Part shown: positions 43,184 to 64,000 of the stretch, one piece after another
How positions within the stretch are numbered: the first letter of the stretch is position 1
How the letters are laid out: each line of letters opens with the position of its first letter
DNA from: Candidatus Rhodoblastus alkanivorans
Lineage (GTDB): Bacteria; Pseudomonadota; Alphaproteobacteria; Rhizobiales; Beijerinckiaceae
Reading direction: 5' to 3'
Length of the DNA stretch: 64,000 bases
Assembly: GCF_022760755.1 (NCBI RefSeq)
Contig: NZ_JAIVFP010000001.1
Coordinates: 3,762,001-3,826,000, forward strand
Translations under genes and position numbers: made by a program
Notes under the pieces: generated by a model
Told to the model about the DNA's origin: nothing
The model's input: the letters and a program-made list of their open reading frames with translations, nothing else
The model's database searches: none

Positions 43184-43843
43184 ATGGCCGAAAAGACCTT
43201 TCCCCTTTACGTTTTCGACGCTTACGGCACTTTGTTCGACGTCCATTCCGCAGTGGCTCGCCATCGCGGCCTCGTCGGGGAGCAGGCCGAACGGCTGTCC
43301 GAAATTTGGCGCGTGAAACAGCTGGAATATACCTGGACGCGCAGCCTGATGGGCGCCTATCGCGATTTCGACGCCTTGACCGCGGAGGCGCTTGATTTCG
43401 CCGCCGCCCGCTGCGGCGGCCTTTCGGCGGAAGCGTGCGAAAAACTGCTCGACGCCTATCGAACGCTCGACGCTTTCCCCGACGCCGCGCCGGCGCTGCG
43501 GCGCTTGCGCGAGCGCGGCGCGAAAGCCGTCATCCTCTCCAACGGCGCGCCGGCGACGCTCGCCCGCGCCGTCGCCGCGGCCGGTTTGCGGGATTTGCTC
43601 GACGAATCGCTCTCCGCCGATTCCGTAATTCGCTTCAAGACCGCGGCCGAAGTCTATGCGCTGGTCGGCGCGCGTTACGGAACGACGCCGGAACAGGTGT
43701 CGTTCCAGTCCTCGAATCGCTGGGACATCGCGGGGGCGGCGCAATTCGGCTTCAACACGGTGTGGATCAATCGCGCCGGAGCGCCCGACGAATATCGCGA
43801 CCTGCCGCCGGCGCGCGTGATTTCGTCTCTTGCAAGTCTCTGA
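43184..43843 (+). CDS. Haloacid dehalogenase, type II (L-2-haloacid dehalogenase-like)
   Basis: The 219-residue HAD enzyme has the nucleophile aspartate in FDAYGTLFDVHS, motif II in ILSNGAPATL, the lysine in IRFKTAAEVY, and FQSSNRWDIAGAAQFGFNTVWINR, the strongly conserved type II dehalogenase block. It should hydrolyse L-2-haloacids to D-2-hydroxyacids, though housekeeping relatives with other roles exist. It follows the channel gene by nine bases. Confidence 0.9.
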   Translation: MAEKTFPLYVFDAYGTLFDVHSAVARHRGLVGEQAERLSEIWRVKQLEYTWTRSLMGAYRDFDALTAEALDFAAARCGGLSAEACEKLLDAYRTLDAFPDAAPALRRLRERGAKAVILSNGAPATLARAVAAAGLRDLLDESLSADSVIRFKTAAEVYALVGARYGTTPEQVSFQSSNRWDIAGAAQFGFNTVWINRAGAPDEYRDLPPARVISSLASL

Positions 43844-43849
43844 TCAAAA

Positions 43850-43939
43850 AGAAAAAAAGGCCGCCGGAAGAACCAGCGGCCCAAGTCTAGGGAGGAAACG
43901 CCCAAGGAGGGCTGCAGCACAAGCACCGCTTGCGCTACG
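43850..43939 (-). ncRNA. Small RNA, probable alpha-r8/MmgR family (copy 1)
   Basis: On the minus strand a sigma-70-type promoter (see 43946-43974) is followed about seven bases later by a predicted RNA of roughly 90 nt. It ends in a strong intrinsic terminator (hairpin 43859-43881, then seven T). The body carries two anti-Shine-Dalgarno-like motifs, CCCTCCTTG and TTTCCTCCCT, the latter being the ten-base hallmark I recall for the alpha-r8 family that includes Sinorhizobium MmgR. MmgR limits PHB granule accumulation. The target here is inference. Confidence 0.75.
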
Positions 43940-43945
43940 GTTGGT

Positions 43946-43974
43946 AAGTTATGTTGCGTCGCACAAATTGTCAA
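43946..43974 (-). promoter_or_regulatory. Promoter of sRNA copy 1
   Basis: Reading the minus strand, TTGACA (43974-43969) is separated by 17 bases from TAACTT (43951-43946). The spacer sequence is the same in copy 2 except for one base. A near-consensus -35 box with ideal spacing supports active transcription. Confidence 0.7.
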
Positions 43975-44143
43975 GAGATTTTTTGCGGTGCGTCATAACG
44001 CCCTCCGCCGCTTGCGCGAAACCTGAAAAGCAAGGGGTTTCGTCGCACCAAAAGCAGGGACTCATTCGCTGGCTGGTGCGTTCGGATCAACCAAAAGAAC
44101 GCCACGCGCGCGATTTTCTCCTTTCAGATCCCTGATCCGAAAA

Positions 44144-44231
44144 GAAAAAAGGCCGCCGGAAGAACCAGCGGCCCAAGTCTAGGGAGGAAACGCCCAAGGA
44201 GGGCTGCAGCACAAGCACCGCTCGTGCTACG
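44144..44231 (-). ncRNA. Small RNA, probable alpha-r8/MmgR family (copy 2)
   Basis: The second copy has the same body as copy 1 from the terminator hairpin (44151-44173, then six T) through the TTTCCTCCCT and CCCTCCTTG motifs. It differs from copy 1 only in its first eight or so bases and in the promoter. The predicted length is close to 90 nt. Identical seed regions mean both would hit the same mRNAs, while promoter differences could give different expression. Confidence 0.75.
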
Positions 44232-44237
44232 GTTCGT

Positions 44238-44266
44238 AAATTATGTTGCGTCGCACAAAATGTCAA
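44238..44266 (-). promoter_or_regulatory. Promoter of sRNA copy 2
   Basis: Reading the minus strand, TTGACA (44266-44261), a 17-base spacer and TAATTT (44243-44238). The -10 box is closer to consensus than in copy 1, so copy 2 may be the stronger promoter. Confidence 0.7.
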
Positions 44267-44426
44267 GGGATTTCGTTTGCATCGCATCATAGCGCCGCCG
44301 TCTGCTCGTGCGAAACTTGGAAAAATAAGCGATCTCGCGCCCCGGCAACCGGGAACCTTCCATTGTTTCGCGGGTTTCGTGCAATCGACTGATCGCCGGC
44401 GCTGTTTTGCCAGGAGGGAGGCGGCC

Positions 44427-59202: not shown

Positions 59203-61596
59203 TCAGGCGCCGGAGGTCGCTTTTTCCCGGTTCGGCGCCGCGAGACGGGCCGGCGCCTGGTTTTCCAGCGGGTCCCTGGTCACGGCGCGCGCCGAGGACC
59301 CCAGATCCGGCAGGTTCAGGACAGAGCGCAATTTCTCAAGGGTTTTGACGGTCTGCGGCTCCATTTCATCGACCGAACCGGCGATATATTGGACGGTCTC
59401 GACCGCACGGCGGCGGTCTTCGGCTTCGGGCAGCAGGTCGGGGAGGGTCTCGATGGCGCGCTCGCGCGCGAATTCGACCACGATGGTCTGCTCGCGGATG
59501 ATCGCCGCCCGCTTTTCCGCGCCGAGCGAGGCGAAAGGCTCGTCCTGGCTCAGCACTTTCGCCGAGCGTTCGAGGCGGTTGCGGCGCACCGTGCCGCGCG
59601 ATTCGGCCATCAGGATCAGCATCCGGATCACCGCGACGTCGAAGCCGCCGCGATCGACCGCCAGCAGGATTTCCTGGACCTCCGGCAGATGCGCCAGTTC
59701 GCCGGGGTCGAGCCGCTTGCGCGCATAGGCGTTGGGCGCGCCGAGGCGCCGCAGCCACGGATTGCCGTAAATGCCGAAAAAGGTCATCTCATAGGCGAAG
59801 TCGCGGATGTCGCGCCAGAAATCGAGCGTCTGGACGACGCCCTCCGCCCAGATCTTCTCAAGGCCGAGGAACGGATTGTCGCGGTCGGCCGGCTGACGCG
59901 CCCGGGCGACGTTCTCCGCCGCCTGGGCGACGAATTTCATCGCCGGGTTCCGATCCGAGAACATGCGGCGCTGCACCCGCGCCGGATGGGTGTTGCGCAA
60001 AAATTCCGCCGCCTGATGGTTGACGGCGGCCTGAACGAAGGGCCGCGCGCCCATGTCGTAAAGTTCGCCGCCCAGTTCCGACAGGCGGGAGACGGTTGCA
60101 AAGCTTTTCTCGTCGTCGCGGCTGTCGTCCAAGGCCGCCAGATCGCTCATCTTGCGTTCGTGGAAGCTGACGCAGAAATGCTCGTGGACGCCTTCGCCGG
60201 TGGTCTCGTCTATGGTCATTTCGTAAAGGCCGGGCGCGAGCGCCTCGATCGTCTTCATGGTCGAGGTGACCTCGGAATGTTCCTTCCTGGCGATGGAGGA
60301 GGACACGAAAATGCCGAGATGGCCGACCTTGTCGTGGATCATGTAAACGATGCGATGGCCGCGGATGCGGATTTCGTGCTCGTCGACGAAAGTGTCCACG
60401 ATCCAGTTCAGCGCCTGTTGCGGCGGGGTGATATTGTCGCCTTGCGAGGCGAAGACGATGATCGGGGAGCGAATCGCCTTGATGTCGAGCCGGCGGCCGC
60501 GCTCGATGCGCGCCTCGCCGCGCGCCAGACGGTTGCCGACGAAGATCTGCTCCACGATCCAGTGGATTTCGGCCTCGTTCATGAGGTGGAAGCCGCCCCA
60601 CCAGCGCTGGAATTCCAGGAAGCGCGCCTTCTGCTTTTCCGGATTGACATAGAGATCGAAATAATCGCCGAAATAGAGGCGGCCCGGATTCAGAAGCTCG
60701 AAATTCTGGACGAGATTGGCGCCGTCGAACACGCCGCCGCCGAGATCGGACAGGATCAAAGCCGGAAGCACGCCGCCGAGCAGGCCGCCGTTGTAGCGCA
60801 TCGGATTTTCGCCTTTGCGCCCCGACCAGGCCGCGACCGGCGCGCCATTGATGACCAGAGGGCCGGTGATCTCGGGATTGGCCGCCGCGAGGATCAGGGT
60901 CGCCCAGCCGCCCTGGCAATTGCCGACGATGATCGGCTTTGGCGCATCGGGATGGCGACGGCGGATTTCGCCGACGAATTTGGCTTCGGCGCGCATCACG
61001 TCGGCGAGCGTCTGATCTGGCTCGGGCATCGGCCGGAAGACGGTGAAATAGACCGGATGGCCGTCATGCAAAGCGACGCCGACCTGGCTGTCGGGCTTGA
61101 AGCCGCCGATGCCCGCGCCATGGCCCGCGCGCGGATCGATGATGAGATAGGGCCGCTTCCAGTCGAAGGTCACGACGCCTTCCGGCGGCTTGATCTTCAG
61201 GAGGACATAATTGACGGGCGGCGTGAGATCCTTGCCGTCGACGATGACCTCGTAATCATAGATCAGGACCGGCGGCATGCCCGCGGCTTCGTGAGAGATG
61301 TCATTGTTGCCGCGCTCGCGCAGGACGTCGAGCGTCAGGACGAAGCGCTGGGCGGCGTCACGGAAATATTCGCTCGCCTCCTTGTACAATTCGCCGTGAT
61401 TGGCGGCGTCCTGCAGGCGGCCGAACAGCGGGTTGAGCTGCTGCCAGACCTCGCGCAGCCGCGCGCTGTGGCTGGCGGTGATCTTCTGTACATGGGCGCT
61501 GGCGACCTCGCCCAGATCCTGCGCCTGGGTCGCCTGGATCGAGCCGTCCTCGGCTTCGCGGCGGAAGAAATTCTCGGGGCTGTAAAGCGGCATCAT
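59203..61596 (-). CDS. DUF3141 protein (PHA-synthase-like hydrolase)
   Basis: The 797-residue protein has an alpha/beta-hydrolase core with a cysteine nucleophile (C227 in IIVGNCQGGWATLILAAA), an aspartate region FASQGDNITPPQQA, and the histidine in HDKVGHLGIFVSS. Long N- and C-terminal helical parts are specific to DUF3141. The family is predicted to act on hydroxyalkanoyl thioesters, but no activity is established. It starts nine bases after ackA and belongs to the operon with pta. AAGGAAA precedes the double ATG. Confidence 0.88.
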   Translation of the reverse strand: MMPLYSPENFFRREAEDGSIQATQAQDLGEVASAHVQKITASHSARLREVWQQLNPLFGRLQDAANHGELYKEASEYFRDAAQRFVLTLDVLRERGNNDISHEAAGMPPVLIYDYEVIVDGKDLTPPVNYVLLKIKPPEGVVTFDWKRPYLIIDPRAGHGAGIGGFKPDSQVGVALHDGHPVYFTVFRPMPEPDQTLADVMRAEAKFVGEIRRRHPDAPKPIIVGNCQGGWATLILAAANPEITGPLVINGAPVAAWSGRKGENPMRYNGGLLGGVLPALILSDLGGGVFDGANLVQNFELLNPGRLYFGDYFDLYVNPEKQKARFLEFQRWWGGFHLMNEAEIHWIVEQIFVGNRLARGEARIERGRRLDIKAIRSPIIVFASQGDNITPPQQALNWIVDTFVDEHEIRIRGHRIVYMIHDKVGHLGIFVSSSIARKEHSEVTSTMKTIEALAPGLYEMTIDETTGEGVHEHFCVSFHERKMSDLAALDDSRDDEKSFATVSRLSELGGELYDMGARPFVQAAVNHQAAEFLRNTHPARVQRRMFSDRNPAMKFVAQAAENVARARQPADRDNPFLGLEKIWAEGVVQTLDFWRDIRDFAYEMTFFGIYGNPWLRRLGAPNAYARKRLDPGELAHLPEVQEILLAVDRGGFDVAVIRMLILMAESRGTVRRNRLERSAKVLSQDEPFASLGAEKRAAIIREQTIVVEFARERAIETLPDLLPEAEDRRRAVETVQYIAGSVDEMEPQTVKTLEKLRSVLNLPDLGSSARAVTRDPLENQAPARLAAPNREKATSGA

Positions 61597-61605
61597 TGCT
61601 TTCCT

Positions 61606-62814
61606 TCACGAAATGGCGGGCACGATCGGCTGCTTGAGGCCGAGCAACTCGGCGGTGTGGGCGGCGATCATCCGCTCTTCGTCGGTCTTGAGGATCAGGG
61701 CGACGGTCGGCGACCCCTTTTCGGATATGACGCGCTCGTTCCTGGCGTTGGCGTCCTCGTCGATCTGGATGCCGAACCATTCCATATCCTTGAGGATGGC
61801 GCGGCGGATGTTGACGGCGTTTTCGCCGATGCCGCCGGTCAGGACGATGCAGTCGAGGCCGCCGAGCACGGCCGAGAGGCCGCCGATCTCGCGCCGGACG
61901 CGCGACACGAAATAATCGATCGCGTCCTTGGCCGATTGTTCGGTCGAGGCTTCGAGATCGCGCATGTCGTTGGAAATTCCCGACATGCCCTTGAGGCCGG
62001 AATTCTTGTAGAGCAGGTCGGTGATCTCGGCCGCGGACATCTTCTTTTCGCTCATCAGATAGAGCACGACGCCGGGATCGAGCTGGCCGCAGCGTGTGCC
62101 CATCGGCAAGCCGTCGAGGGCGGTGAAGCCCATGGTCGAGGCGACCGATCTGCCGGCGTTGATCGCGCAGAGCGAGGCGCCATTGCCGAGATGGGCGACG
62201 ATCACCTTGCCGCGCGCCAGCACCGGCTCCTCATAGCGCAGGATGCGGTGAATGAATTCGTAGGACAGGCCGTGGAAGCCGTAACGGCGCACGCCTTCGT
62301 CGTAATATTGGCGCGGCAGCGCGAAAGTGTCGGCGATGAACGGATGCTTGCGGTGGAAGGCGGTGTCGAAACAGGCGACCTGGGCGGCGTGCGGGAAAGC
62401 GTGGATCGCCGCCTCGACGCCGGCGAGGTTATAGGGCTGGTGCAAAGGCGCCAATGGTTCGAGCGCCTTGAGGTCCTTGAAGGTTTCCGTCGTCACCAGC
62501 ACCGGCTGCGCATAATTCGGGCCGCCATGGACGACACGATGGCCGACGCCGACGACATTGGCGCCCGGCAATTGATCTTCCATCCAGTCCAGCACCGCCG
62601 TCAGCGCCATTTTGTGATCGACGGCGGCGTGGGTCTGATCGAGCACGAAATGGGTCTTTTCGCCGCCGGATTTTCTGGCCGAAAAGGTCGCCTTGCCGCC
62701 AATGCCGTCGATCAGGCCGCTGGCAAGCGGGGTCAGCTTGCCCTCGGCGATTTCCTGGGCCGAAAATTTGACCGACGACGAACCGGCGTTGATGGTCAGG
62801 ATGATGTCGCCCAT
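61606..62814 (-). CDS. ackA: Acetate kinase (acetate/propionate kinase family)
   Basis: The enzyme interconverts acetyl phosphate plus ADP with acetate plus ATP. The 402-residue protein has TINAGSSSVKFS, GHRVVHGG, VACFDTAFHR, RYGFHGLSYEFI, AHLGNGASLCAI and GGLDCIVLTGGIGENA, all standard. ATG 62814 is fixed by the first motif. It sits between pta and DUF3141 on one transcript and could also use butyryl or propionyl phosphate. Confidence 0.95.
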   Translation of the reverse strand: MGDIILTINAGSSSVKFSAQEIAEGKLTPLASGLIDGIGGKATFSARKSGGEKTHFVLDQTHAAVDHKMALTAVLDWMEDQLPGANVVGVGHRVVHGGPNYAQPVLVTTETFKDLKALEPLAPLHQPYNLAGVEAAIHAFPHAAQVACFDTAFHRKHPFIADTFALPRQYYDEGVRRYGFHGLSYEFIHRILRYEEPVLARGKVIVAHLGNGASLCAINAGRSVASTMGFTALDGLPMGTRCGQLDPGVVLYLMSEKKMSAAEITDLLYKNSGLKGMSGISNDMRDLEASTEQSAKDAIDYFVSRVRREIGGLSAVLGGLDCIVLTGGIGENAVNIRRAILKDMEWFGIQIDEDANARNERVISEKGSPTVALILKTDEERMIAAHTAELLGLKQPIVPAIS

Positions 62815-62855
62815 ATTTGTCCTCGATTTTCCGACGATCACCGCGCCAGCCGCGA

Positions 62856-64000
62856 TCATTCGGCCGCGAGCGCCTCGTCGGACGCCGCGCCGGTAAAGGC
62901 GCGGCCGTGCTGGCGCCAATAAGCATAGAGCTGGGCCAAAGCGCAGGACACGAGGCGCGCCTTCTCATTGTCGGCCCGGCTCGTCAGCATGACCGGGGCC
63001 GAAGCGCCGACGACGAGGCCGGCGGCCTCGGCATGGGCGACGAAGGTGAGTTCCTTCGCCAGCATGTTGCCGGATTCGAGATTGGGGGCGATCAGCACAT
63101 TGGCGTGGCCGGCGACCAGCGAGGCTATGCCCTTGGTGCGCGCCGCGTCGACGTCGATGGCGTTGTCCATGGCGAGCGGGCCATCCACCACGCCGCCGCG
63201 AATCTGGCCGCGCTCGGCCATTTTCGACAGAATCGCCGCGTCGAGCGTGGAGGCGATCGCCGGATTGATGACCTCGACGGCGGACAGGACGCCGACCTTC
63301 GGATCGACGCCGCAGGCGAGCGCCAGATCGATCGCGTTCTGAACGATGTCCACCTTGGTCAGGAGGTCGGGCGCGATATTGATCGCGGCGTCGGAGACGA
63401 ACAGCAGATCGTCGAGGGTCAGCGTATCGAGCACGAAGACATGGCTGATGCGGCGCCCCGCGCGCAGGCCGCCGTCCTTTTTCACCACGGCGGCGAGCAG
63501 GTCGTCGGAGTGGATGTCTCCCTTCATGACCGCGCCGGCCTCGCCCGCCCGGACCATGGCGACCGCCTTGTCGGCGGCGGCGCGGTGGTCCTTCTCCTCG
63601 ACCAGCTTGAACTGGGAAATATCGGCGTCAAGCTCCCTGGCGGCGGCGGCGATGCGCTCCGGGTCGCCGATGAAGATCGGCTCGATCAGTCCCCTCTCGA
63701 ACGCCAGCAGCGGACCGCCCAGCGAATTGTGGTCTTCCGGGCAGACCACGACGGTTTTCAGGCGCGGGAGTTGCGCGGCGAGGTTGATGAGATGCGGGAA
63801 CTGCTCCTTCTCCTCCAGGATCAGCGCCGGCAATTCGCGCACCGGGGTCTCGACATTGCGGGTCGGCGCGCTCACCACCGCCAGGCCCTTGCAGACCGAC
63901 TCGCCCTTGCCGTTGACGACAACGGTGTCGAAGACCACGACCGGTTCGGCGCGCTTTTCCTTGCACGTCACCGTAACGCGCAGCTTGTCGCCGACATGGA
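62856..64000 (-). CDS. pta: Bifunctional enoyl-CoA hydratase/phosphate acetyltransferase (5' end outside window)
   Basis: The visible part starts at the window edge with HVGDKLRVTVTCKEKR, the end of a MaoC-like hotdog hydratase domain (VVFDTVVVNGKGESVCKGLAVV). A full phosphate acetyl/butyryltransferase domain follows from about residue 55 of the visible part (VVVCPEDHNSLGGPLLAFERGLIEPIFIGD to MLTSRADNEKARLVSCALA). It would make acyl phosphate from acyl-CoA for AckA. ackA follows after 41 bases. The N-terminus and start codon are not in the window. Confidence 0.9.
   Translation of the reverse strand, partial: HVGDKLRVTVTCKEKRAEPVVVFDTVVVNGKGESVCKGLAVVSAPTRNVETPVRELPALILEEKEQFPHLINLAAQLPRLKTVVVCPEDHNSLGGPLLAFERGLIEPIFIGDPERIAAAARELDADISQFKLVEEKDHRAAADKAVAMVRAGEAGAVMKGDIHSDDLLAAVVKKDGGLRAGRRISHVFVLDTLTLDDLLFVSDAAINIAPDLLTKVDIVQNAIDLALACGVDPKVGVLSAVEVINPAIASTLDAAILSKMAERGQIRGGVVDGPLAMDNAIDVDAARTKGIASLVAGHANVLIAPNLESGNMLAKELTFVAHAEAAGLVVGASAPVMLTSRADNEKARLVSCALAQLYAYWRQHGRAFTGAASDEALAAE

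Follow-up and report, generated by a model that had tools for sequence, protein, structure and literature searches.

MmgR, described as a 77-nt RNA (PMC8401924), is the sole alpha-r8 sRNA of Sinorhizobium meliloti (PMC12559287). Its promoter is bound by PhaR, whose motif core in that species is YGCRNYGCR (PMC12542648), and a dyad between the -35 and -10 hexamers is needed for the control of mmgR by NtrC and AniA (PMC8401924). The phaP1 and phaP2 promoters of S. meliloti carry two palindromes, which flank the -35 hexamer (PMC12542648). In most species, the usual single alpha-r8 copy adjoins an N-formylglutamate amidohydrolase gene; many genera have several copies, some of them mutually adjacent (PMC12559287). 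In Caulobacter crescentus, the sponge CrfA titrates the alpha-R8 siblings SisA-D, mRNAs are repressed by SisA through base pairing at their 5' UTR, and the question has been raised whether the siblings act redundantly or independently (PMC12559287).

We analysed a 64,000-nt stretch of the Candidatus Rhodoblastus alkanivorans genome, hereafter the window, in which an original prediction made from the letters alone had placed two tandem copies of an MmgR/alpha-r8-like sRNA gene. Two minus-strand units, 292 bases apart, are indeed present there and span 43836-44315 (Table 1). As had been described, each consists of a TTGACA-N17-TAAnTT promoter, a body of about 90 nt carrying TTTCCTCCCT and CCCTCCTTG, and a hairpin followed by a T run. 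The +1 of unit 1 was taken to be the G of GTAGC, from promoter spacing. Assignment to the family was borne out by the covariance model: against Rfam RF00519 (mmgR/suhB, alpha-r8 family; curated cut-off 41 bits), unit 1 scored 78.6 bits over 44136-44211 and unit 2 scored 77.3 bits over 43844-43919. The identical core, previously put at about 72 bases, is longer than that, the longest exact run common to the two units being 78 nt (44222-44145 = 43930-43853). SorY was set aside as an identity (25 and 20.5 bits, for a cut-off of 111). The pair is real and well formed, a member of a known sRNA family duplicated in tandem, and ordinary as a kind. Features absent from the original prediction are the 11-bp 5' hairpin, the PhaR-type dyads flanking each -35, the trace of the HAD gene end separating the units, and five more matches elsewhere in the genome. 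Neither the pair nor any Rhodoblastus sRNA was reported in the literature searched, to which the 2016 alpha-r8 phylogeny and the 2018 promoter papers may add.

Table 1. Features of the tandem sRNA locus (positions in the window).
Feature	Position	Strand	Basis
HAD-superfamily hydrolase gene, convergent neighbour of unit 2	43184..43843	(+)	PF00702, 74.7 bits
Unit 2, predicted alpha-r8/MmgR-type sRNA adjoining the HAD gene, taken as ancestral	43850..43938	(-)	RF00519, fold
Anti-Shine-Dalgarno core UUUCCUCCCU (TTTCCTCCCT), unit 2	43889..43898	(-)	sequence
CCCTCCTTG, unit 2	43911-43903	(-)	sequence
5' hairpin of 11 bp, unit 2, outside the paired part of the Rfam model	43914..43938	(-)	fold, alignment
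Unit 2 promoter TTGACA-N17-TAACTT	43946..43974	(-)	-35 43974-43969, -10 43951-43946
Unit 2 PhaR-type dyad TGCGACGCA, between -35 and -10	43955..43963	(-)	motif match
Unit 2 second PhaR-type dyad CGCACCGCA, upstream of -35	43984..43992	(-)	motif match
Decayed copy of the HAD gene 3' end, between the units	44100..44135	(-)	26/37 identical to 43808-43843
Unit 1, predicted alpha-r8/MmgR-type sRNA, daughter copy	44142..44230	(-)	RF00519, fold
Anti-Shine-Dalgarno core UUUCCUCCCU (TTTCCTCCCT), unit 1	44181..44190	(-)	sequence
CCCTCCTTG, unit 1	44203-44195	(-)	sequence
5' hairpin of 11 bp, unit 1, outside the paired part of the Rfam model	44206..44230	(-)	fold, alignment
Unit 1 promoter TTGACA-N17-TAATTT	44238..44266	(-)	-35 44266-44261, -10 44243-44238
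Unit 1 PhaR-type dyad TGCGACGCA, between -35 and -10	44247..44255	(-)	motif match
Unit 1 second PhaR-type dyad TGCGATGCA, upstream of -35	44278..44286	(-)	motif match

The predicted fold is the same for both units: an 11-bp 5' hairpin, a GCCC-UCCUU-GGGC hairpin, a single-stranded stretch containing UUUCCUCCCU, and the terminator. Its energy is -47.2 kcal/mol for unit 1 (z -5.87) and -46.1 kcal/mol for unit 2 (z -5.46), and none of 200 shuffles was as good in either case. Core, middle hairpin and terminator match the alpha-r8 family pattern. By sequence and predicted fold, the 10-mer follows a weak hairpin and is single-stranded in both units, in agreement with the published description of the family (PMC12559287), and both end in the stem and T run of a Rho-independent terminator. 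The two differences between the RNAs fall in one arm of the 5' hairpin, where pairing is kept.

Covariation was measured on 15 aligned genes (14 distinct rows), namely the loci with flanking dyads among 46 read in the genus, using the fold of unit 1 as the structure. Paired cells amounted to 97.7%, compared with 91.1% after shuffling and 37-56% when the structure was slid along the alignment. Two-sided changes were present in seven pairs, a number reached by 19 of 500 shuffles; five of the seven are in the 5' hairpin. The covariation score was above that of all 500. Further pair types were not in excess, as 495 of the 500 shuffles reached the same number. It is extremely improbable that, instead of sRNAs, the units are a leader acting in cis, a repeat or a small gene: mechanical ORFs do cross the region, but with the HAD gene convergent to unit 2 there is no close same-strand gene after that unit, promoter and terminator are present separately for both units, and the Rfam scores stand well above cut-off with hairpins that covary. 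Leader, repeat and protein-coding gene were ruled out on these grounds.

Sequences around the units support the local copying event that had been supposed, and indicate that the 3' end of the HAD gene was carried along. None of 2000 shuffles was as good as the 26/37 identity of the HAD-end remnant found downstream of unit 1; no similarity was detected in the next 60 nt beyond it (727/2000 shuffles as good). Upstream of -35, similarity is clear for about 60 nt (0/2000 shuffles as good) and marginal over a further 60 nt (64/2000). From this extent, the duplicated segment measures about 230 bp or somewhat more. Because the true end of the HAD gene adjoins unit 2 and the decayed copy adjoins unit 1, unit 2 is taken to occupy the old position. 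By eye, HAD-like sequence lies downstream of six of nine counterpart loci, which were obtained at one per genome from nine of the ten other genomes of the genus. Side-by-side matches at the corresponding place were found in one of 11 genus genomes, the bacterium's own.

The flanks were rightly said to have drifted, with about 70% identity. Between the units, 78/80 positions of the RNA are identical, 34/37 from -35 to +1, and 42/61 upstream of -35. With gap columns scored as differences, the RNA is more conserved than the HAD-end copy (78/80 versus 26/37, Fisher p 4.6e-5) and than the stretch upstream of -35 (78/80 versus 42/61, Fisher p 1.8e-6). Over 186 nt, likeness is greatest between the units themselves (0.85), none of the nine counterparts exceeding 0.79. 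Within the RNA stretch, however, unit 2 agrees with unit 1 at 0.97 but with two single-copy relatives at 0.99. In the promoter core, the value between the twins (0.89) is slightly below the one that each unit reaches with a relative (0.92). Along the RNA, identity to the units is 94-99% for the four closest counterparts and 71-82% for the other five, and in a tree of units and counterparts no branching of the two units received support. Judged from these comparisons, constraint on RNA and promoter is enough to explain the likeness of the units; gene conversion is possible.

These data also bear on the selective value of the pair. The units could be a neutral duplicate, alike through gene conversion or youth, with no selected effect on dosage. 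The presence of the pair at this place in a single one of the 11 genus genomes searched agrees with such neutrality, as does the occurrence of close pairs elsewhere in the family, but youth alone is hard to reconcile with near-neutral flanks at about 70% identity next to a promoter core and an RNA that have not drifted. We find this explanation rather unlikely, and it is compatible with the control and dosage mechanism proposed below.

Each promoter carries two YGCRNYGCR palindromes, as expected in the PhaR/AniA regulon, and their placement around the -35 hexamer resembles that described for the S. meliloti phasin promoters. The genome encodes phaR (PF07879, 103.3 bits) and hfq (110.5 bits). 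In the genus, 47 RF00519 matches came from 11 genomes, and DNA was fetched for all but one; 15 of these 46 loci have the layout with flanking dyads. A formal count was made on 42, after dropping three loci below 36 bits and one at a contig end. A dyad lies 30-50 nt before the Rfam start in 25/42, whereas 1000 shuffles gave a mean of 1.92 and a maximum of 9; the loci counted are related, so that these are not independent events.

That one seed is served by two promoters, as the original prediction put it, is literally correct, and the two promoters have nearly the same core and the same two-dyad layout. Of its two suggested outcomes, dosage and condition-specific control, the first is favoured, because the promoters are nearly identical from -35 to +1 and each has two PhaR-type dyads in the same arrangement. 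From the sequences, shared control by PHB status with an extra gene dose appears likelier than condition-specific control. Condition-specific promoters within the pair were ruled out as the leading reading by the matching core and sites. In its full form, this reading holds that the units are separately controlled siblings, whose drifted promoters answer different conditions. Its basis is the low identity upstream of -35, the differing letters of the outer dyads (TGCGATGCA versus CGCACCGCA), the unrelated promoters and distinct expression of the Caulobacter siblings (PMC12559287), and a pair in another genome of the family, G038, with a dyad at one unit only. Given that the inner dyad is the same, that the outer one is in the same place, and that neither unit has a private site among the PhaR-type and FNR/FixK-type motifs looked for, we regard separate control as quite improbable, and retain shared control with a raised dose.

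An RF00519 match was present in 146/149 genomes of the family, above cut-off in 143. Among the matches listed, same-strand neighbours within 1 kb were found in three further genomes, G088 (293 bases), G038 (215) and G129 (936). Adjacent alpha-r8 genes are thus recurrent, with same-strand pairs elsewhere in at least three genomes of the family. Dyads accompany both units in G088 and G129; in G038 one unit has a dyad and the other lacks it, so pairs can diverge. Upstream stretches from the family had a dyad within 95 nt in 32 of the 35 distinct ones looked at, a count that comes without a shuffled control and in which some dyads, those close to the Rfam start, may fall within the transcribed 5' hairpin. 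Within the genus, G009 (C225:11997-13370) has two diverged alpha-r8-like matches that share a strand and are separated by about 1.3 kb, at a place other than that of the window pair; the second scores below cut-off.

The genome holds seven RF00519 matches, six of them above cut-off. Five have PhaR-type dyads, one has an FNR/FixK-like box, and one is seemingly promoterless. The copy at C1:1449621 lies between an FGase gene (PF05013, 247.3 bits) and an inositol-monophosphatase gene. As this sibling holds the classical mmgR place, the window pair is a secondary locus: the FGase-adjacent position is typical of the single copy, not required, and the pair has the HAD gene as neighbour instead. The siblings at C2:24541 and C1:640481 both adjoin DUF1612 genes, and the former is also near a resolvase gene; these neighbours suggest that the two copies spread with mobile elements. 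At C2:43905-44000, the RNA body resembles that of C2:24541, and a comparable promoter is absent by eye, so this copy seems to have lost it. An AbiEii-type gene lies near that sibling.

The last sibling, at C1:8181-8256 on the minus strand, scores 38.9 bits, just below the cut-off. Its promoter has no PhaR dyad but TTGTTCCAAATCAA, followed exactly 22 nt on by TATCTT. Such a TTGN-N6-TCAA box occurs at 13 of the 46 genus loci, nine of which exceed the RF00519 cut-off, and a TAT hexamer stands exactly 22 nt on in 12 of the 13. We take this spacing to be the geometry of a class-II FNR/FixK promoter. In the formal count, box and hexamer at the right distance were found at 9/42 loci (shuffles: mean 0.011, maximum 1), and 8/42 have neither dyad nor box under the strict patterns. 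The genome also encodes a Crp-family protein that combines an ETVSR helix with a single cysteine, presumably as in the FixK type. A search for such siblings outside the genus, with a narrow pattern and RNA bodies judged by eye, covered 199 genomes from the order, of which, besides the bacterium's own, 6 of 198 belong to the same family; it gave 24 pattern matches in 21 genomes, and an alpha-r8 body at C1:8181-8256 only. FNR/FixK-controlled alpha-r8 siblings were not reported in the literature searched, where again the 2016 phylogeny and the 2018 promoter papers may hold more. Tentatively, and with slightly more doubt than confidence, we propose that one anti-Shine-Dalgarno sRNA has multiplied in Rhodoblastus and that the promoters of its siblings are split between PHB sensors (PhaR-type double sites) and oxygen sensors (class-II FNR/FixK), the tandem pair being a gain on the PHB arm. 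If so, information on carbon stores and on oxygen would come together at a single seed with a single set of targets. This split is the most interesting lead of the analysis.

Candidate targets were sought through GGGAGGAAA placed 1-8 nt before an ATG. The genome has 14 such matches, and the reversed-pattern control gave 0; one match belongs to a 25-codon frame, probably no gene. Ten were named with Pfam: phenol-hydroxylase large subunit, Phenol_monoox, MmoB/DmpM, FGGY kinase, PPK2, ApbE, DsrC-like, nitrate-reductase-gamma-like, Polyketide_cyc2 and one sub-threshold DUF. Four of the 14 fall within about 34 kb in phenol-hydroxylase genes (C1:1.37-1.40 Mb), with the complement at the Shine-Dalgarno site; the large subunit is there in two copies, 87% identical, of which one was scanned. 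This clustering, in one region with a duplicated gene, is suggestive. Across the 11 genus genomes there were 137 matches, some of them the sRNA genes themselves, and 2 in the controls. DNA was fetched for 30 of the 137 and 29 were read; two close protein types recur, as do distant ABC ATPases. As targets, the recurring types are a lead drawn from sequence matches. Pairing predictions are weakly specific, because the core is an anti-Shine-Dalgarno sequence. A CrfA-like sponge was not identified among the eight perfect complements of the 10-mer in the genome: four are sRNA genes, one is the Shine-Dalgarno region of the Polyketide_cyc2 protein, another lies about 50 nt before a start that, by eye, belongs to a c-type cytochrome, and the remaining two lack a start codon within 40 nt.

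The window had been called rich in PHB genes. This holds in part: the 30 frames scanned with Pfam include one clear PHB depolymerase (319.1 bits), a lower-scoring PHB_depo_C/DUF3141-type protein (58.5 bits), two CoA-transferase subunits and one DUF3141 protein. At 59203-63971, a DUF3141 protein (755.6 bits) is encoded on the same strand as adjoining acetate-kinase and phosphate-acetyltransferase-family genes. Some 11 kb away from the window there is a phasin pair. Against PhaR control of the pair, dyads were present within 300 nt upstream at only two of six phasin loci examined and at none for phaR; upstream of the phasin gene at C1:3750972-3751250, about 11 kb before the window, there are two PhaR-type dyads with 19 nt between them, and its leader contains a short seed match. 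With regard to the suggested control of PHB mRNAs, seed duplexes at phasin starts, some assigned mechanically, had energies of -4.4 to -12.8 kcal/mol, given with no background, and full 9-nt seed complements before ATG occur in genes other than the phasins tried.

Taken as a whole, the locus is probably best explained as a duplicated alpha-r8 sRNA under shared PhaR control, which raises the dose of one regulator. A local duplication of about 230 bp gave a second alpha-r8 (MmgR/SisA-type) gene with its own promoter. When PHB is scarce, PhaR would repress both promoters; when PHB granules sequester PhaR, both copies would be transcribed. The RNA of about 90 nt would then act with Hfq, its single-stranded UUUCCUCCCU covering the Shine-Dalgarno sequences of target mRNAs and causing their repression. 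Because the two RNAs hardly differ and their control sites resemble each other, the pair would raise the dose of one regulator, and control would have diversified among the other genomic siblings, not inside the pair. With near-same RNAs, the same kind of control sites, and one copy that can be removed, the pair offers a clean test of sRNA dosage. The set of siblings with PHB-type and oxygen-type promoters likewise gives a testable handle on redundancy versus independence among siblings.

AbcR RNAs carry anti-Shine-Dalgarno motifs, and AbcR1 and AbcR2 are differently controlled. The window pair is like AbcR1/AbcR2 of the alpha-rhizobia in being two adjacent homologous sRNAs (PMC8844928; positions, PMC7143759), those of the rhizobia controlling nutrient uptake and metabolism (PMC8844928). 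They belong to another RNA family, and the comparison concerns the way of working. With MmgR of S. meliloti, the RF00519 match, the UUUCCUCCCU core and the terminator are shared, and so is the PhaR dyad between -35 and -10 (PMC12542648, PMC8401924). Unlike MmgR, the window has two adjacent copies beside a HAD gene, each with a second dyad upstream of -35 and a predicted RNA that is longer and includes the 11-bp 5' hairpin. Several siblings in one genome, with one anti-Shine-Dalgarno core and the same 10-mer, recall SisA-D of C. crescentus, whose promoters are reported to share no motif, in contrast to the PhaR-type dyads at five of the seven copies here (PMC12559287). Multi-copy and adjacent alpha-r8 genes having already been published, the tandem pair is a further case of a described pattern.
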